Source of the DNA: an uncultured Kiloniellaceae bacterium
GTDB taxonomy: Bacteria > Pseudomonadota > Alphaproteobacteria > Kiloniellales > Kiloniellaceae
Assembly: GCA_947493695.1 (NCBI GenBank)
Contig: CANLSF010000003.1
Location: 186,001 to 250,000, forward strand
Direction of reading: 5' to 3'
Length of the DNA: 64,000 nucleotides
A program made the translations under genes and the position numbers. The notes under the pieces are model-generated. The model was not told the origin of the DNA and searched no databases. It was given only the letters and a program-made list of their open reading frames with translations. Numbering within the stretch: position 1 is the first letter of the stretch; each line of letters begins with the position of its first letter. This document shows, piece by piece, positions 29,451 to 36,518 of the stretch.

Positions 29451-30212
29451 ATGCGACGCAGACGGATTTATGAGGGTAAAGCCAAGGTTCTTTTCGAAGG
29501 CCCTGAGCCCGGCACGGTAGTACAGTACTTCAAGGATGATGCAACGGCCTTCAACAATCAGAAGAAGGGCACCATCACCGGCAAAGGGGTTCTGAACAAC
29601 CGTATCTCCGAGCACCTCATGCTGCGTCTGGCGGAAATCGGCATCCCAACCCACTTCGTACGCCGCCTCAACATGCGCGAGCAGTTGGTCCGTGAAGTCG
29701 AGATCATTCCGATTGAAGTTGTGATCCGGAATGTCGCCGCTGGTTCGATCTGCAAACGCCTTGGTGTCGAGGAAGGCACGCCGCTGCCGCGTTCCATCGT
29801 CGAATACTACCTGAAGAACGACGAACTCGGCGATCCTCTGGTCTCAGAAGAGCACGTGACCGCCTTCGGCTGGGCTTCGACCCAGGATCTTGACGAGATG
29901 ATGCAGTACGCGCTGCGATCCAACGACTTTCTGACCGGCCTGTTTTACAGCATCGGAATGAAGCTCGTGGACTTCAAGCTGGAGTTTGGCCGGCTGTGGG
30001 ACGAAGAAGAAATGCGCATCGTTCTGGCGGATGAAATCAGTCCGGATTCCTGCCGACTCTGGGATATCAAGACCAACGAGAAGCTGGACAAGGACCGCTT
30101 TCGCAAGGATCTCGGCAAGGTCGAAGAAGCCTATCAGGAAGTGGCGCGCCGCCTCGGCGTTCTACCCGAAGCCGGCCCTGTCGATATGCAGGGCCCCCAG
30201 GTGATGCAGTAG
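29451..30212 (+). CDS. purC: SAICAR synthetase
   Basis: A 253-residue enzyme joining CAIR and aspartate with ATP to give SAICAR. Family sequences seen are [20 protein letters not shown] at the N-terminus, [25 protein letters not shown] and [10 protein letters not shown]. Full length. The start is ATG at 29451. It is followed 10 bases later by pdxJ, so the pair is an operon. It lies 3 kb upstream of purSQL, with pdxJ, a chemoreceptor and an MlaC-like gene between. Confidence 0.97.
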
Positions 30213-30222
30213 CGAGGACTTT

Positions 30223-30984
30223 ATGCCGGTTGCCCTCTCCGCGAATGTCAACGCCGTCGCTGAGCTCCGGAACCGGCGTAACCTGCCATGGCCGTCAGTT
30301 GTAGCGCTTTCCCGTATCGCGCTCTCAGCCGGCGCGGCGGGCATTACGGTTCATCCCCGCCCCGACGAGCGGCATATCAAACTCTCCGATGTGCCTGAGA
30401 TCGCAGAAATGATATCTGCAGAGTTCCCGGACCGGGAATTCAACGTCGAAGGCAATCCGGATGCCCGCTTCATCGAGCTGGTCGAGAGGGTTCGGCCCGA
30501 TCAGGTAACGCTCGTTCCAGACGACATTCGTCAGGCTACCTCCGATCACGGCTGGGACATTGAGCAACACCAGGGATTTCTTACCGACATCATCGCGCGC
30601 ATAAAATCAGGTGGCATGCGGGTTTCGGTCTTTGTCGATCCGACACCCGAAACGGCACACCAGGCCCGCGCAGTCGGTGCGGACCGCATTGAAATCTACA
30701 CTGGCCCTTACGGCGGCGCGTTGGAGCCGGATTCGCAACGCCGGGAACTCGATTGCGTCGTGGCGACTGGACGGGCCGCAGTTGAGGCTGGAATCGGCGT
30801 GAATGCCGGCCATGACCTGACACTCGACAATCTGCCTCCGCTTGTTGCAGCCCTTCCCAACCTGCTGGAAGTCTCGATCGGCCATTGTCTCACAGCAGAT
30901 GCCTTGCTTTACGGCATGGATGGCTCTGTTCGCCGCTATCTCGAGGCATGCGGACATCAGGTAGACACTTCAACAACGCTGTAA
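30223..30984 (+). CDS. pdxJ: Pyridoxine 5'-phosphate synthase
   Basis: A 253-residue TIM-barrel enzyme of the DXP-dependent vitamin B6 pathway. It condenses 1-deoxy-D-xylulose 5-phosphate with 3-amino-2-oxopropyl phosphate. Family segments are LSANVNAVAELRNRRN, AAGITVHPRPDERHI, NVEGNPD and SVFVDPTPE, with GADRIEIYTGPYG and VNAGHDLTLDNL towards the end. It is 10 bases downstream of purC. Escherichia coli has pdxJ with recO and acpS; the purC linkage is unusual but plausible, since both belong to cofactor and nucleotide supply. Confidence 0.96.
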   Translation: MPVALSANVNAVAELRNRRNLPWPSVVALSRIALSAGAAGITVHPRPDERHIKLSDVPEIAEMISAEFPDREFNVEGNPDARFIELVERVRPDQVTLVPDDIRQATSDHGWDIEQHQGFLTDIIARIKSGGMRVSVFVDPTPETAHQARAVGADRIEIYTGPYGGALEPDSQRRELDCVVATGRAAVEAGIGVNAGHDLTLDNLPPLVAALPNLLEVSIGHCLTADALLYGMDGSVRRYLEACGHQVDTSTTL

Positions 30985-31023
30985 ACGTGCAAATCTCTGT
31001 GATTTGACGAAATCCTGGTGTGG

Positions 31024-31049
31024 TTAAGCCGGAATTTACCCTAGCTTAA
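31024..31049 (+). promoter_or_regulatory. CtrA-like boxes upstream of the chemoreceptor
   Basis: TTAA at 31024, TTTA at 31035 and TTAA at 31046, each separated by seven bases. This gives two overlapping matches to TTAA-N7-TTAA, the alphaproteobacterial CtrA consensus, each with one mismatch in the shared half-site. They lie 100-125 bases before the chemoreceptor start. CtrA controls motility and chemotaxis genes in many alphaproteobacteria. Confidence 0.45.
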
Positions 31050-31148
31050 GGTCGGGCAGCATATTTTATGCCCATTATGTCTATACGAATGTTTGTCAAA
31101 GCATGACTTGGCAAGCTTGAGACACAAATCTCTTTTCGCTGGGTACCA

Positions 31149-32324
31149 ATGTCAAAGCCTTCTCCCTTCCAACTCGCGGTTTCCGACGGTACACCGCTGA
31201 GATCCCTTATCACTGCGGCTGTAGTCGGTCCGATACTAACAGCCATCAACCAGGGCGACGCTATTTGGTCCGGGGCGAATATCGATCTGGGAAAGGCCGC
31301 ATTGACCTTTGTAGTCCCCTTCATCGTCGCCACCGCAGGTGCCGTACAGGCGAAGCGTTCCAGCGAAAACCAAGCTTCGGTTAACTCTGCTGCAGCCCCT
31401 CACCCGGACAGGCTGACGGCTTCTGCTGACACTGAAGCCTCATTGAACACTGCGCCGGAGCACCCCAAAACTGACAACCCGGCAGAGCCCTATGCGCAGT
31501 TGGACTCTGGCCTGCTGGACGAAGCCAGCACCATGGTCGGGACGATCAAGGGCAACGCCGTCAAGGTCAATACAGCCTCCAAGGCCAGGATCGCCTTTAT
31601 CACAGATCTCATTTCGGCATCGCAGGATGTAAAGACAGAAGTCGATGCCATTCAGGAACTTGCAACCGCAATCGACACCAGCCTGCTCGCCGCTCACCAG
31701 GACGCGGGCGAAGTTGTCGCCCACGCCCGAAACATCGCCTCGACCGCCGAAGAGGGCGTGACGCTCTCCGACAACGTTGTGTCCTCGATCAATAAGCTGC
31801 AGGAAGACTTCGCTCAGATTACCGAGATATCTCAGGGGATCGGCGCAATCGCCAAACAAACCAACCTGCTGGCCCTCAACGCCACCATCGAAGCGACCAG
31901 GGCCGGCGACGCTGGCAAGGGCTTCGCGGTCGTTGCCGCAGAGGTCAAAACCCTGGCCAACAACGCAGGAGAATCCGCCGAGCAGATCAACGGGGTCCTG
32001 GGCGATCTGTCACAGAGTATCGAGGAAGTCCTGAAGCACCTGGAACAGCTGTCCAAAAATCTGAAGCATGCCCTGGACGCCAGCGCCCAAGGCCAGTCAC
32101 AAACAGGCAAGATCTCAGAAGCCATCGATGACGCGGTCAATGTCGCCAAGCAAACCGCCAGCCAGGCCGGCGCTCAGGCCGAACGTTTCAGTTCGGTGGC
32201 CGACCGTCTCGATCAGATCAAGCAGGACGCCGAAGCGGCCGTCACAGGCTCCGGTAAGAACATTGAACTCACGGAAGGTGTGCTTGAGAAGCTCGAAGCC
32301 GCGAAACGCCAGGCCACCCGTTAA
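31149..32324 (+). CDS. Chemoreceptor with N-terminal NrtS-like membrane domain
   Basis: A 391-residue methyl-accepting-type protein. Residues about 15-68 hold two hydrophobic helices with the NrtS-like signature [15 protein letters not shown] and [15 protein letters not shown]; NrtS proteins are small nitrate/nitrite transporters. A polar linker of about 60 residues follows, then a signalling coiled coil (about 120-390) whose hairpin tip reads [16 protein letters not shown] at about 233-248 and continues into [12 protein letters not shown]. No periplasmic ligand-binding domain and no HAMP domain are seen, and there is no C-terminal CheR-binding pentapeptide. That it senses nitrate or nitrite is inference. 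It stands between pdxJ and the converging MlaC-like gene. Confidence 0.84.
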
Positions 32325-32368
32325 ACTGCCAGTTTAATACGACAGATTTTCTCTTTGAAATAAAGAAG

Positions 32369-32974
32369 TTACTTTCGCCTCTTTACCTGTCGCTCAAGCG
32401 CATTTGTCAAGCCATCGACGCCTTTGCTCGCTGCCACGCCGGCAAACTCTTCGCGGTAGGTCTTGGCCTGACTGACGCCCTCCACCATGACGTCGGTGAT
32501 CTCATAGTTCCCACCATCACCTGATACGATCCATGAGAGGTTCAGCGGCGCACCCGATGTATTTTCGATGTGAGTCGCTACAGCACTGCGTCCTTCACCC
32601 CGGTCTTTCGTCGATGTGACGGCAAAGCTCGTGGGCCCCGCTTCCGTCACCAGACGCAGGTAGGCGGCCACCAGATAATCTGAAAAGACATCCTGAAACC
32701 TAGCGCGCTCGTCGTCGGTGGCCTTGGACCACTCCCCCGCGACCACGTAGGCTGAAATGCTTTCGATGCCAACACCTTCCCGAAGGACCGTGTCCAATGC
32801 GTCTTTGCGCGAGTCAGCGCTCAAATCTTCTGCCGCAACAATGGAAACCACTTGATTTCCCATATCCTGAACGAATTTAGCCGCGCCTTCGCTCGCCGCC
32901 TGAGCGCCTGCCCCTATGCTTACCAGCGCGATCAGCAGATACGCTACCGCGATTGGTGTTCCATACCGTGTCAT
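32369..32974 (-). CDS. MlaC/Ttg2D-like periplasmic phospholipid-binding protein
   Basis: A 201-residue secreted protein with a signal peptide ending at about residue 26 (SIGAGAQA). The mature part matches the MlaC/Ttg2 (toluene tolerance) family: FVQDMGNQVVSIV, the central WSKATDDERARFQDVFSDYLV, then a beta-rich half with LSWIVSGDGGNYEITDVMVEGVS. MlaC ferries phospholipid between the outer-membrane MlaA complex and the inner-membrane MlaFEDB transporter. No mlaDEFB or mlaA genes are adjacent; this orphan copy converges on the chemoreceptor and is divergent from purS. Confidence 0.87.
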   Translation of the reverse strand: MTRYGTPIAVAYLLIALVSIGAGAQAASEGAAKFVQDMGNQVVSIVAAEDLSADSRKDALDTVLREGVGIESISAYVVAGEWSKATDDERARFQDVFSDYLVAAYLRLVTEAGPTSFAVTSTKDRGEGRSAVATHIENTSGAPLNLSWIVSGDGGNYEITDVMVEGVSQAKTYREEFAGVAASKGVDGLTNALERQVKRRK

Positions 32975-33111
32975 TGATTTCTCTCCGCTGTGTCATCTCC
33001 TCATCGCACACCCAGCCCCTCCTGCGCATTACGATGTCTTGCTCCGGATCCGACTCCCCGCTTCTGACCGCAGATTTATAAGCCGCCAAGACCTGCTGGG
33101 ATGCAAGAGAC

Positions 33112-33125
33112 GTCAATATATTGAC
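33112..33125. promoter_or_regulatory. Perfect 14-base palindrome between mlaC-like and purS
   Basis: GTCAATATATTGAC is a perfect palindrome in the 300-base divergent gap (32975-33275), and its right half overlaps a TTGACA -35-like box at 33121. It looks like an operator; the regulator is unknown. The rest of the gap holds nothing else recognised. Confidence 0.4.
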
Positions 33126-33275
33126 ACAGACGTAAAGGATTTGTGCCGTCTCTCACAAAAGGGCCCATGAAGCTGCATTTTATCGAAAAAAGGCCTTCAA
33201 GTGTCCTTGTCACGGCATCGCCGTATCGCTAGATTTCGCGCGCTTCCACAGTCCCATAAATCCACGGAGTCCCGC

Positions 33276-33518
33276 GTGAAAGCTCGCGTTTACGTCACCC
33301 TCAAAAACGGTGTCCTCGACCCCCAGGGCAAAGCCATCGAGCATGCCCTCTCCGCCCTCGATTTTCAGGGCGTCGACCAGGTCCGCCAGGGCAAACTGAT
33401 TGAACTCGACCTCAGCGAGTCCGATCCGGAACTTGCCCGCAATAACGTTGCGGCCATGTGCGAAAAGCTGCTCGCGAATACCGTGATCGAGAATTACACG
33501 ATCGAGCTTGCGGACTGA
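33276..33518 (+). CDS. purS: Phosphoribosylformylglycinamidine synthase subunit PurS
   Basis: An 80-residue subunit that bridges PurQ and PurL in the FGAM synthase complex. It begins KARVYVTLKNGVLDPQGKAIEHAL, a near-diagnostic PurS start, and ends YTIEL. GTG at 33276 is used because CGGAG sits about 9 bases upstream and the fold starts here; the in-frame reading upstream is spurious. purQ follows after 115 bases. Confidence 0.96.
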   Translation: MKARVYVTLKNGVLDPQGKAIEHALSALDFQGVDQVRQGKLIELDLSESDPELARNNVAAMCEKLLANTVIENYTIELAD

Positions 33519-33633
33519 CTTTAAGTCCGGACGTTCGCGATCAATGACTGACAATGGCGCTTTTCCAGAGCCAGGCATCTCCAATCTGCTTGGTCTCTGA
33601 CAGGAAAGAGCTCAAAAACTAGGAAATCACGCA

Positions 33634-34323
33634 ATGAAAGCCGCGGTTATCGTTTTCCCCGGATCGAACTGCGACCGCGACGTCCAGGTGACGCTGCGCG
33701 ACGTCAGCGGTGTCGAGCCGGTGATGGTCTGGCACAAGGAAAGCAGCTTCGAGGATGTCGATCTGATCGTCCTGCCGGGCGGTTTCTCCTACGGCGACTA
33801 TCTGCGCAGCGGCGCAATGGCCTCTAAGTCCCAGGTGATGCGCGAAGTGGTTAAACGTGCAGGCAACGGTGTGCCGGTTCTGGGGATCTGCAACGGCTTC
33901 CAGGTTCTGACCGAGAGCGGCCTGCTGCCGGGCGCCCTGATGCGCAATGCCAATCTGAAGTTCATTTGCAAGGACGTTCATCTGAAGGTCGAAAGCAGTC
34001 AGAGCCTCTTTACCTCGGCCTATGAGACCGGACAGGTCGTCCGCATCCCTGTGGCCCATCATGACGGCAACTACTTTGCAGGCGAAGAAGAGCTGGACCG
34101 TCTGGAAGGCAACGGGCAGATCGCCTTTCGCTATGTTGAACAGGACGGCAGCGTCGAAGCCGCAGCCAATCCCAACGGCTCTGCGCGCAATATCGCCGGT
34201 GTTTACAACGAAACCAAAACCGTTCTGGGCCTGATGCCCCATCCCGAACGCCTTGCCGACCCGCAGCTTGGCGGTATCGATGGCAAAGGCATGTTCACAA
34301 GTCTGCTGGAGAGCCTTTCGTGA
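33634..34323 (+). CDS. purQ: Phosphoribosylformylglycinamidine synthase subunit PurQ
   Basis: A 229-residue class I glutamine amidotransferase that supplies ammonia to PurL. Catalytic Cys86 lies in [12 protein letters not shown]; the His-Glu pair is in GLMPHPER near the C-terminus. It begins [15 protein letters not shown], typical of PurQ. The stop overlaps the purL start by four bases, so the two are translationally coupled. Confidence 0.97.
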
Positions 34324-36518
34324 GCGAGATCACCCCAGAGGTCGTGGCCGAACATGGCCTGAACGAGACTGAATACCAACGGGTCCTTGAGATCATGGGG
34401 CGGGAACCGAACCTGCTCGAACTCGGGATCTTTTCGGTGATGTGGTCGGAGCATTGCTCCTACAAGTCTTCCAAGAAATGGCTCAAAACCCTCCCGACCG
34501 AAGCACCGCATGTCATCGAAGGTCCGGGCGAGAACGCAGGTGTCATCGACATCGGTGACGGTCTGGCCGCCGTCTTCAAGATGGAGAGCCATAACCACCC
34601 AAGCTTCATCGAGCCCTATCAGGGCGCTGCTACCGGCGTCGGCGGCATCCTCCGCGACGTCTTCACCATGGGCGCGCGCCCCATCGCCAACCTGAACGCC
34701 CTGCGCTTTGGATCGCCCGACCATGCCAAGACCCGGCACCTGGTCTCGGGTGTCGTTGCAGGCATCGGCGGTTACGGCAACTGTGTCGGCGTGCCGACTG
34801 TGGGCGGCGAGGTCAACTTCGACCCCTCCTACAACGGCAACATCCTGGTCAACGCAATGACAGTGGGTCTGGCCCCGGCGAACCGGATCTTCAAGGCCGC
34901 AGCCCAGGGCGTCGGCAATCCGGTCATCTACGTGGGCTCCAAGACCGGCCGCGACGGCATCCATGGTGCAACCATGGCCTCGGCTGAGTTCGATGACGAT
35001 TCGGACGAGAAGCGCCCGACCGTGCAGGTCGGCGACCCCTTCACGGAAAAGCTGCTGATCGAAGCCTGCCTGGAACTTATGGAAACCGATGCCATTATCG
35101 GCATCCAGGACATGGGTGCCGCCGGTCTCACGTCGTCTTCCTTTGAAATGGCCTCCAAGGGCGGGATGGGCGTCGAACTGAACCTGGATCAGGTGCCCTG
35201 CCGCGAAGACGGCATGACGCCTTATGAGATGATGCTCTCGGAAAGCCAGGAACGCATGCTCATGGTGCTCAAGCCGGGCAATGAAGACATGGCCCGCGCG
35301 ATCATGGAAAAATGGGACCTGGACTTTGCCGTCATAGGCACCCTGACCGAAAGTGGACGCATGGTGCTGCGGATGCACGGCGAAGTCGTTGGAGATCTGC
35401 CTATCGATCCTTTGGCAGAAGCCTCCCCCGAATACGACCGACCTTGGGTTCCAACGCCGGCCCGTGATGAACTCAACGCCGAAGACCTCCCCATCCCGGC
35501 CGACACAGGCAAGGTGCTGCACCAGCTTATGGGCTCGCCGAACCTTTGCTCGCGCCGCTGGATCTGGGAACAGTACGATCACATGGTTATGGCCGACACC
35601 CAGGCCCGTCCTGGTGGCGATGCCGCGGTTGTCCGCGTGCACGGCACCGGGCGCGCGCTGGCAATCTCGACCGATTGCACCCCGCGCTACTGCCAGGCCG
35701 ATCCGGCACGTGGCGGCGCGCAGGCTGTTGCCGAATCCTGGCGCAACCTGACCGCCGTTGGCGCCACACCGCTTGCCATCACCGACAACATGAATTTCGG
35801 AAACCCCGAAAAGCCTGAAATCATGGGCCAGTTCGTCGGCTGTATCGAAGGCATGCGGGCCGCCTGCGATGCGCTGGCCTATCCCGTCGTCTCCGGTAAC
35901 GTCTCGCTTTACAACGAGACCAACGGCGCGGCGATCCTGCCGACCCCTGCAATCGGCGGCGTTGGTGTCATCGATGACGCGACCAAAACCGCAGGCGTCG
36001 GCTTTACCGAGGAAGGTGTGGACATTGTCCTCATCGGCGAAACGACTGGCCACCTGGGATCCACGACGTATCTGTCGGAAATTGAAGGACGTTCAGACGG
36101 TGCACCGCCGGTCGTCGACCTTGAGCAGGAAAAGCGCAACGGCGACTTCGTTCGTAACCTCATAAAATCCGGACAAGTCACTGTTTGTCATGATATTTCG
36201 GACGGCGGCCTTGCTGTATCTGTCGCGGAAATGGCCCTTGCGGGCGGCATCGGTGCCACGGTCGAACAGCCGTCAGGTATCACCGTTCCACTCCATGCCT
36301 GGCTCTTCGGTGAAGATCAGGCGCGCTACCTGGTTGCCACAGCATCATCCGAAAAGCTGCTCCAAGACGCACAGGCTGAAGGTGTTTCAGCCAGCATTAT
36401 CGGCAGAACAGGTGGGAAAACGTTGACCTTGCCCGGTGGCAGCCCCACATCCCTGGGTGACTTGTCGCGCGCGCATGAGGGCTGGCTCCCCGGTTACATG
36501 GCAGGTACAGTTAACTGA
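34320..36518 (+). CDS. purL: Phosphoribosylformylglycinamidine synthase subunit PurL (small type)
   Basis: A 732-residue ATP-dependent enzyme converting FGAR to FGAM. The length is that of the small PurL that needs PurS and PurQ, not the 1300-residue fused enzyme of Escherichia coli. Two AIRS-like halves are visible, with [12 protein letters not shown] at the start, [20 protein letters not shown] (ATP and FGAR site) and [17 protein letters not shown] in the second half. GTG at 34320 overlaps purQ by four bases. It is followed by a hairpin, then bolA and grxD. Confidence 0.97.

Follow-up and report, generated by a model that had tools for sequence, protein, structure and literature searches.

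Maeda et al. are said to have described NrtS, in 2019, as a transporter of nitrate and nitrite, and to our knowledge the uptake of these ions is the only experimental function of the family. Nitrate chemotaxis has already been described, for the receptor McpN of Pseudomonas aeruginosa (PMC6381276). The fusion of a transporter domain to a histidine kinase is also on record: Ks-Amt5 binds ammonium and does not efficiently translocate it (PMC5764959; Ks-Amt5 is also treated in the review PMC8534201).

Here we analyzed a 64,000-nucleotide stretch of DNA from an uncultured Kiloniellaceae bacterium (the window), in which one gene joins an NrtS-like membrane domain to the signalling half of a chemoreceptor (MCP). 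The first-pass annotation of this DNA had suggested that such a protein could sense the flux of nitrate or nitrite across the membrane, a mode of taxis not known to it from earlier descriptions. Nitrate chemotaxis and a transporter-kinase fusion were both already known (McpN and Ks-Amt5, respectively). In the open-access papers searched, a scope in which absence is not proof, none was found that connects NrtS with a chemoreceptor.

The NrtS-like domain and the receptor that carries it

We recognized the following features in and around the fusion gene, where A4 denotes our alignment, and the profile made from it, of 10 fused coils. The start codon of the gene is supported by its relatives, which start at the same place.

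31149..32324, + strand: NrtS-MCP fusion gene, an open reading frame of 391 aa present in the sequence, with an ATG start
31191..31361 (residues 15-71), + strand: two-helix NrtS-like membrane domain, from the NF038050 match to residues 22-68 and hydropathy
31230..31274 (residues 28-42), + strand: NrtS family signature (INQGD), from conservation in stand-alone NrtS
31293..31295, + strand: Lys49, shared by 66 of 71 stand-alone NrtS and retained in 8 of 12 fusions, the window's among them
31362..31505 (residues 72-119), + strand: linker from the membrane domain to the coil, with 6 prolines and a length that differs among relatives
31506..32321 (residues 120-391), + strand: signalling coil hairpin of the receptor, from the PF00015 match on 193-359, alignment A4 and a low-confidence model
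31557..31598 (residues 137-150), + strand: coil-base motif of the N-helix, A..VN..S..R..F, unchanged across all 10 sequences of A4
31737..31763 (residues 197-205), + strand: candidate methylation site ASTAEEGVT, from a regular-expression scan
31857..31937 (residues 237-263), + strand: hairpin tip, from the alignment of relatives, A4
32238..32261 (residues 364-371), + strand: coil-base motif of the C-helix, A..GS..N, the same in each of the 10 A4 sequences

In a Pfam scan, residues 193-359 matched PF00015 (MCPsignal) with an E-value of 1.1e-31, and the conserved hairpin tip is present. Neither a HAMP domain nor any other sensor appeared among the best 25 of 32 Pfam families at E-values up to 10. 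Both results agree with the first-pass annotation, which had proposed a chemoreceptor signalling half with no HAMP domain and no further sensor. Hydropathy, computed in 19-residue windows, revealed two membrane segments, the windows of which begin at residues 15-16 and 42-51; no further segment was seen beyond residue 70, where the best value was 0.75. Regarding methylation, we scanned with a regular expression for a putative pattern of such sites. It matched within the coil of the window's protein (residue 197) and at the corresponding place in three other members of its genus; among the eight remaining fusions it gave one match, at residue 98 of L017, outside the coil. Besides, a palindrome, TTAAACTG-C-CAGTTTAA, lies at 32321-32337 and overlaps the stop codon of the gene.

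The membrane segment had been assigned to NrtS from its INQGD signature, with a profile search of the N-terminus proposed as a check. In that search, the first 80 residues matched NCBIfam NF038050 (NrtS) over residues 22-68 with 26.9 bits (E 3.2e-6), above the curated cut-off of 25 bits; the whole protein gave 22.7 bits (E 6.5e-5), which is under it. When the bacterium's own genome was searched in six frames, the window gene was the sole match over the cut-off, and the runner-up reached 11.3 bits (E 2.2). Only one match over the cut-off was found in 14 control genomes, in Synechococcus elongatus, and a tblastn search with residues 1-76 against 72,556 plasmid records returned two matches, both annotated nrtS. 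No PDB sequence resembled the NrtS profile at E-values up to 1.

To describe conservation, we aligned 71 stand-alone and 12 fused NrtS domains and defined as conserved those positions shared by at least 85% of the 71. Five of them (G27, L30, I33, V56 and P57) do not vary among the stand-alone proteins; of the rest, N34 and V60 are shared by 70, V26 by 67, K49, L52 and T53 by 66, and D37 by 62. The window's domain retains all 12. It also has in common with stand-alone NrtS the LT..VP motif, the INQGD signature, Lys49 and the two helices. The family call was right. Ordinary MCP transmembrane helices were rejected, because the nearest matches of the domain are NrtS and all 12 conserved positions are retained, although in some relatives the resemblance to NrtS is weaker. 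A chance match of a short profile was likewise discarded, given the recurrence in 12 genomes and the two-gene pairs presented below. The gene encodes a 391-aa fusion and not a small stand-alone protein, so we classed it with the NrtS domains and kept it apart from the NrtS transporters.

The 12 fusions have kept these positions unevenly. L30, N34 and T53 are found in all of them and G27, I33, L52, V56, P57 and V60 in 11, with K49 and D37 kept only in eight and V26 in seven. For K49, the comparison of fused with stand-alone domains gave a Fisher p of 0.022, in a test that ignores relatedness and is indicative only. The same limit applies to Gln35 and Ala38, each present in 12 of 12 fused domains versus 42 and 26, respectively, of the 71 stand-alone ones. 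The loss of Lys49 in four of the 12 fusions would fit a shift from transporter to sensor in those members, and not obviously in the window's protein.

Recurrence, origin and genomic context of the fusion

The first-pass annotation had suggested a survey of MCPs with an NrtS-like N-terminus, and ours yielded 12 fusions, one per genome; four belong to the window's genus and two lie outside its class. A search of 58 relatives gave eight genomes at E <= 1e-40 (the window's own included), and all eight proteins are NrtS-MCP fusions. With NF038050, we obtained matches at E <= 0.01 in 24 of 385 genomes of the class, 19 of them over the cut-off; beyond two of the window's genus, this screening identified one more fusion, L038, whose match is just under the cut-off. 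A second profile, A2, built from 26 NrtS domains, detected NrtS in 35 of 61 genomes of the order and in 35 of 398 genomes of the phylum. The phylum survey added three fusions: L104 and L110, which lie outside the class, and the divergent L105. Ten of the 11 further fused N-termini were scanned against NCBIfam (L012 was left out), and NrtS was the best match for all ten, with four over the NF038050 cut-off and weak values for L105 (E 0.005), L015 (E 0.0094) and L104 (E 0.098, scanned in truncated form). No other sensor domain was found in the seven other fusions scanned. Finally, a contig search gave four loci, of which three are in close relatives and the fourth is a receptor of Acetobacterium with weak similarity. 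The copies in the three named relatives are 74-83% identical (82% in Denitrobaculum tricleocarpae R148) and have the same purine-gene context, so that a one-off fusion or an assembly artefact was rejected; the host is close to Denitrobaculum/Pelagibius.

Trees of the domains and of the coils do not decide between one and several origins of the fusion. In the best tree of 83 NrtS domains (the divergent L039, L107, L108 and L109 were dropped) the fusions are not one clade; a single fusion clade gave an AU p of 0.066, and two further clades that we tried gave 0.288 and 0.108. For a tree of 36 coils, the single fusion clade gave an AU p of 0.138. Three of the dropped sequences, L107, L108 and L109, are frames of 159-222 aa in which, by eye, a divergent NrtS-like hairpin is followed by an apparent second hairpin, and they are perhaps an internally duplicated relative of NrtS.

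The gene context of the window's fusion (29451-36518) includes pdxJ and mlaC, and the fusion itself sits between purC and purS. Stand-alone nrtS genes lie in the purC-purS-purQ cluster in seven of 71 cases, all in genomes of the class: four have the order purC-[nrtS]-purS (L058, L066, L067 and L068), one directly follows purC at a contig end (L057) and two are placed between purS and purQ (L020 and L026). The shared cluster suggests this locus as a possible place of origin, or of recombination, for the window's gene. We also observed NrtS and PurS in one unbroken frame at L058:85-828, L066:1450-2055, L067:1459-2097 and in L068 (minus strand), which may be a case of coupling and not of fusion, since possible start codons precede PurS. 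In L031:787-1713, on the minus strand, NrtS shares an open frame with a GmhA-like protein (phosphoheptose isomerase), as judged by eye.

In the flanks of eight other fusions, inspected by eye with the first 70 residues of each open reading frame listed, we recognized no nitrate gene and no consistent neighbour. We also recorded narG and napA in 65 genomes. The window's genome has both, and nine of the 12 fusion carriers have one or the other, with neither in the remaining three. Within the order there was no enrichment (7/8 carriers versus 37/53 non-carriers, p 0.42), nor was there an association with NrtS of any kind (27/35 versus 17/26, p 0.39). No significant association with nitrate respiration was thus seen in the 65 genomes.

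One could argue that the protein senses another small anion, or an energy-related state, and not nitrate or nitrite. The purine cluster, which has no obvious link to nitrate and harbours seven of the 71 stand-alone nrtS as well as the window's fusion, hints at a role of NrtS that is wider than nitrate or different from it, and the lack of association with narG or napA goes in the same direction. However, nitrate and nitrite are the ions in the NCBIfam name of NrtS and in the only experimental function that we know of for the family, and a housekeeping gene context may be accidental, so that we regard a different ligand as rather improbable.

The coil family, its two-gene forms and the coil-base motif

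By their scores, the coils of the fusions form a receptor family of their own. In genome scans with A4, the fusions scored 313.5-345.6 bits, although 10 of the 12 do so by construction, because they are rows of A4; the soluble relatives described below are outside the model. Among the matches listed, receptors that are not fusions reached 130.2 bits or less in the 385 genomes of the class and at most 137.3 bits in the 398 of the phylum, save G714 (232 bits) and G750 (166.6 bits). Weak members of the family could be missed, because the A4 searches scored at most six candidates per genome. The tree of 36 coils split 24 family members from 12 other receptors with a support of 90/95.

The exceptions in G714 and G750 are soluble receptors, and the gene of each immediately follows a separate nrtS; in the first a short gap lies between the two genes, and in the second the start codon of the receptor overlaps the end of nrtS. 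We searched relatives of both (88 and 89 genomes, respectively), and the soluble members of the family now number 12, counting these two. A separate nrtS adjoins seven of them, on the same strand and in either gene order: upstream of the receptor in L140, L156, L141 and L153, and downstream in L157, L158 and L159. The five adjacent NrtS that we tested, out of seven, all gave 35-45 bits against the NF038050 cut-off of 25, and the three soluble partners tested, out of 12, all matched PF00015. In the other five (L150, L151, L152, L154 and L155) no nrtS was found within a flank of ~1.4 kb, yet they belong to the same coil family and carry the same paired motif. Seen from the side of the transporter, a family coil lies next to two of the 71 stand-alone nrtS of our first surveys (G714 and G750), and NrtS mostly occurs without a receptor of this family. 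Gene fusion, together with adjacency in both orders, gives good evidence that NrtS and this chemoreceptor family work together, and it suggests that a transporter-like protein is used in the steering of swimming. What could have passed for a curiosity is thus a partnership of NrtS and chemoreceptor that occurs repeatedly. In G446, a gene next to the fusion (L134:2445-3980) encodes another receptor, whose N-terminus looks by eye like a PAS domain of the Aer type.

The paired motif lies at the base of the coil. In all 12 fusions, the tip Glu follows the VN of the first half by exactly 108 residues, and in 11 of them it precedes the GS of the second half by 119 (123 in L104). This constant spacing places the two halves opposite each other at the end of the hairpin that is nearer the membrane. 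Six positions in one half and four in the other are invariant across the 10 aligned fusions. The pair itself is present in 12/12 fusions and, by eye, in the 12 soluble relatives (L159 has Lys for Arg). A scan whose two patterns were VN..S..R and GS..N plus a next residue of I, M or V found it in none of 28 other receptors, which were those already at hand and not a random draw, and one of which (L002) is a short open reading frame.

These residues admit another reading, in which NrtS is a conduit that lets nitrate or nitrite in and the coil base, with Asn, Ser and Arg opposite Ser and Asn, binds the anion in the cytoplasm. An invariant base with its halves opposed in the hairpin would suit such a site, as would the presence of a fused or adjacent NrtS in 19 of the 24 members of the motif family and the fact that NrtS can occur as a separate protein. 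We nevertheless consider it unlikely. Five of the 12 soluble receptors carry the motif with no nrtS in the examined flank, the four fusions that lack Lys49 may not transport, and the confidence of the structure model is too low to use. Moreover, the N-box of McpN, given in PMC6381276 as [IVL]-[ND]-x-A-G-x-Q-R-M-L-[ST]-Q, has no match in the window's protein.

In contrast to the constant register of the coil, the linker varies between 29 and 60 residues across the fusions and is Pro-rich in some. A structure prediction, also proposed in the first-pass annotation, was run with AlphaFold2 (4 sequences). It returned the two N-terminal helices (17-40 and 47-81), no helix in 82-119 and a helical coil, but with low confidence, the mean pLDDT being 44.7 and that of the N-terminal part near 30. 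For this reason, the topology of the membrane domain rests on hydropathy and charge: with R18 ahead of the first helix and K69 and R70 after the second, both termini are predicted to be cytoplasmic.

Variable, in part Pro-rich linkers could also mean that the domain is a mere membrane anchor or an oligomerising cap, the signal coming from another protein or from the energy state of the membrane. The loss of Lys49 in 4/12 fusions, the divergent domain of L105 and the low scores of some fusions against the NrtS profile speak for this too. Still, the retention of N34, T53 and P57 in 11-12 of the 12 fusions is unexpected of a plain anchor, and a separate NrtS, as adjoins 7/12 soluble receptors, is unlikely to anchor anything unless it docks on the coil. 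Considering also that no other sensor domain was found in the window's protein or in the seven other fusions scanned, we give an anchor little credence.

A proposed mechanism and its relation to known systems

The reading that we prefer, with a probability of about one half, is that the NrtS-type membrane domain is the input module of the chemoreceptor, an anion-binding assembly that contacts the coil base and thereby sets the kinase. Its sequence shows three parts, namely a two-helix domain homologous to NrtS, a linker of variable length and a soluble coil that belongs to a separate receptor family. Having both termini of the membrane domain in the cytoplasm would allow the coil to reach CheA/CheW in the usual way. 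NrtS subunits would form a membrane assembly able to bind a small anion. Nitrate or nitrite is the most likely candidate, given the family name and the work attributed to Maeda et al.; Ks-Amt5 is a precedent for a transporter domain that has become a sensor. The assembly, when occupied or working, would alter its contact with the coil base (VN..S..R / GS..N), and the altered contact would set kinase activity. Transfer of the signal would probably occur by contact or clustering at the coil base. A single rigid helix, the route taken in HAMP receptors, is unlikely because the linker is long, variable and partly Pro-rich, and it is impossible where NrtS is a separate protein.

Six NrtS subunits would come together in a receptor trimer of dimers, the same number as in the hexamer that is reported for NrtS. 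Taken further, a two-helix anion transporter, fused or separate, could act as the transporter-receptor of a dedicated family, its six subunits capping a trimer of dimers and swimming being steered by the occupancy or flux of nitrate or nitrite; this fuller picture is tentative, and we lean against it. Nitrate sensing, and flux sensing in particular, are put forward as hypotheses. The lack of narG or napA enrichment, the incomplete conservation in the fusions and some weak NrtS scores count against the preferred reading and its nitrate ligand. So do the rarity of a family receptor beside stand-alone nrtS (2 of 71), the five of 12 soluble receptors with no nrtS in the examined flank, the low confidence of the model in its N-terminal part and the whole-protein NrtS score under the cut-off.

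If our preferred reading is true, a membrane module derived from a transporter can drive taxis, and it does so in a very small receptor that has neither a periplasmic sensor nor a HAMP domain. An orphan chemoreceptor family would thus gain a possible input, and NrtS a second role. The two-gene versions make the contact between transporter and receptor testable in isolation, and the paired motif of the coil base offers precise residues for mutation.

By comparing the window's protein with classical MCPs (PF00015), we find the signalling hairpin and its conserved tip in common; it differs from them in having no detected HAMP or periplasmic domain, a coil family of its own and the paired base motif. 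McpN has a periplasmic PilJ domain with the N-box (PMC6381276), whereas in the window's protein no periplasmic domain was found and the N-box is absent. NrtS itself is a small stand-alone protein, while here an NrtS domain, as the predicted input module, is followed by a linker and signalling coil of ~320 residues. In Ks-Amt5 (PMC5764959) the domain is an Amt, the output is a histidine kinase and ligand binding has been measured, whereas the window's protein combines NrtS with a chemoreceptor. Both have in common a transporter-derived membrane domain set in a signalling protein, where in Ks-Amt5 it serves as the sensor.
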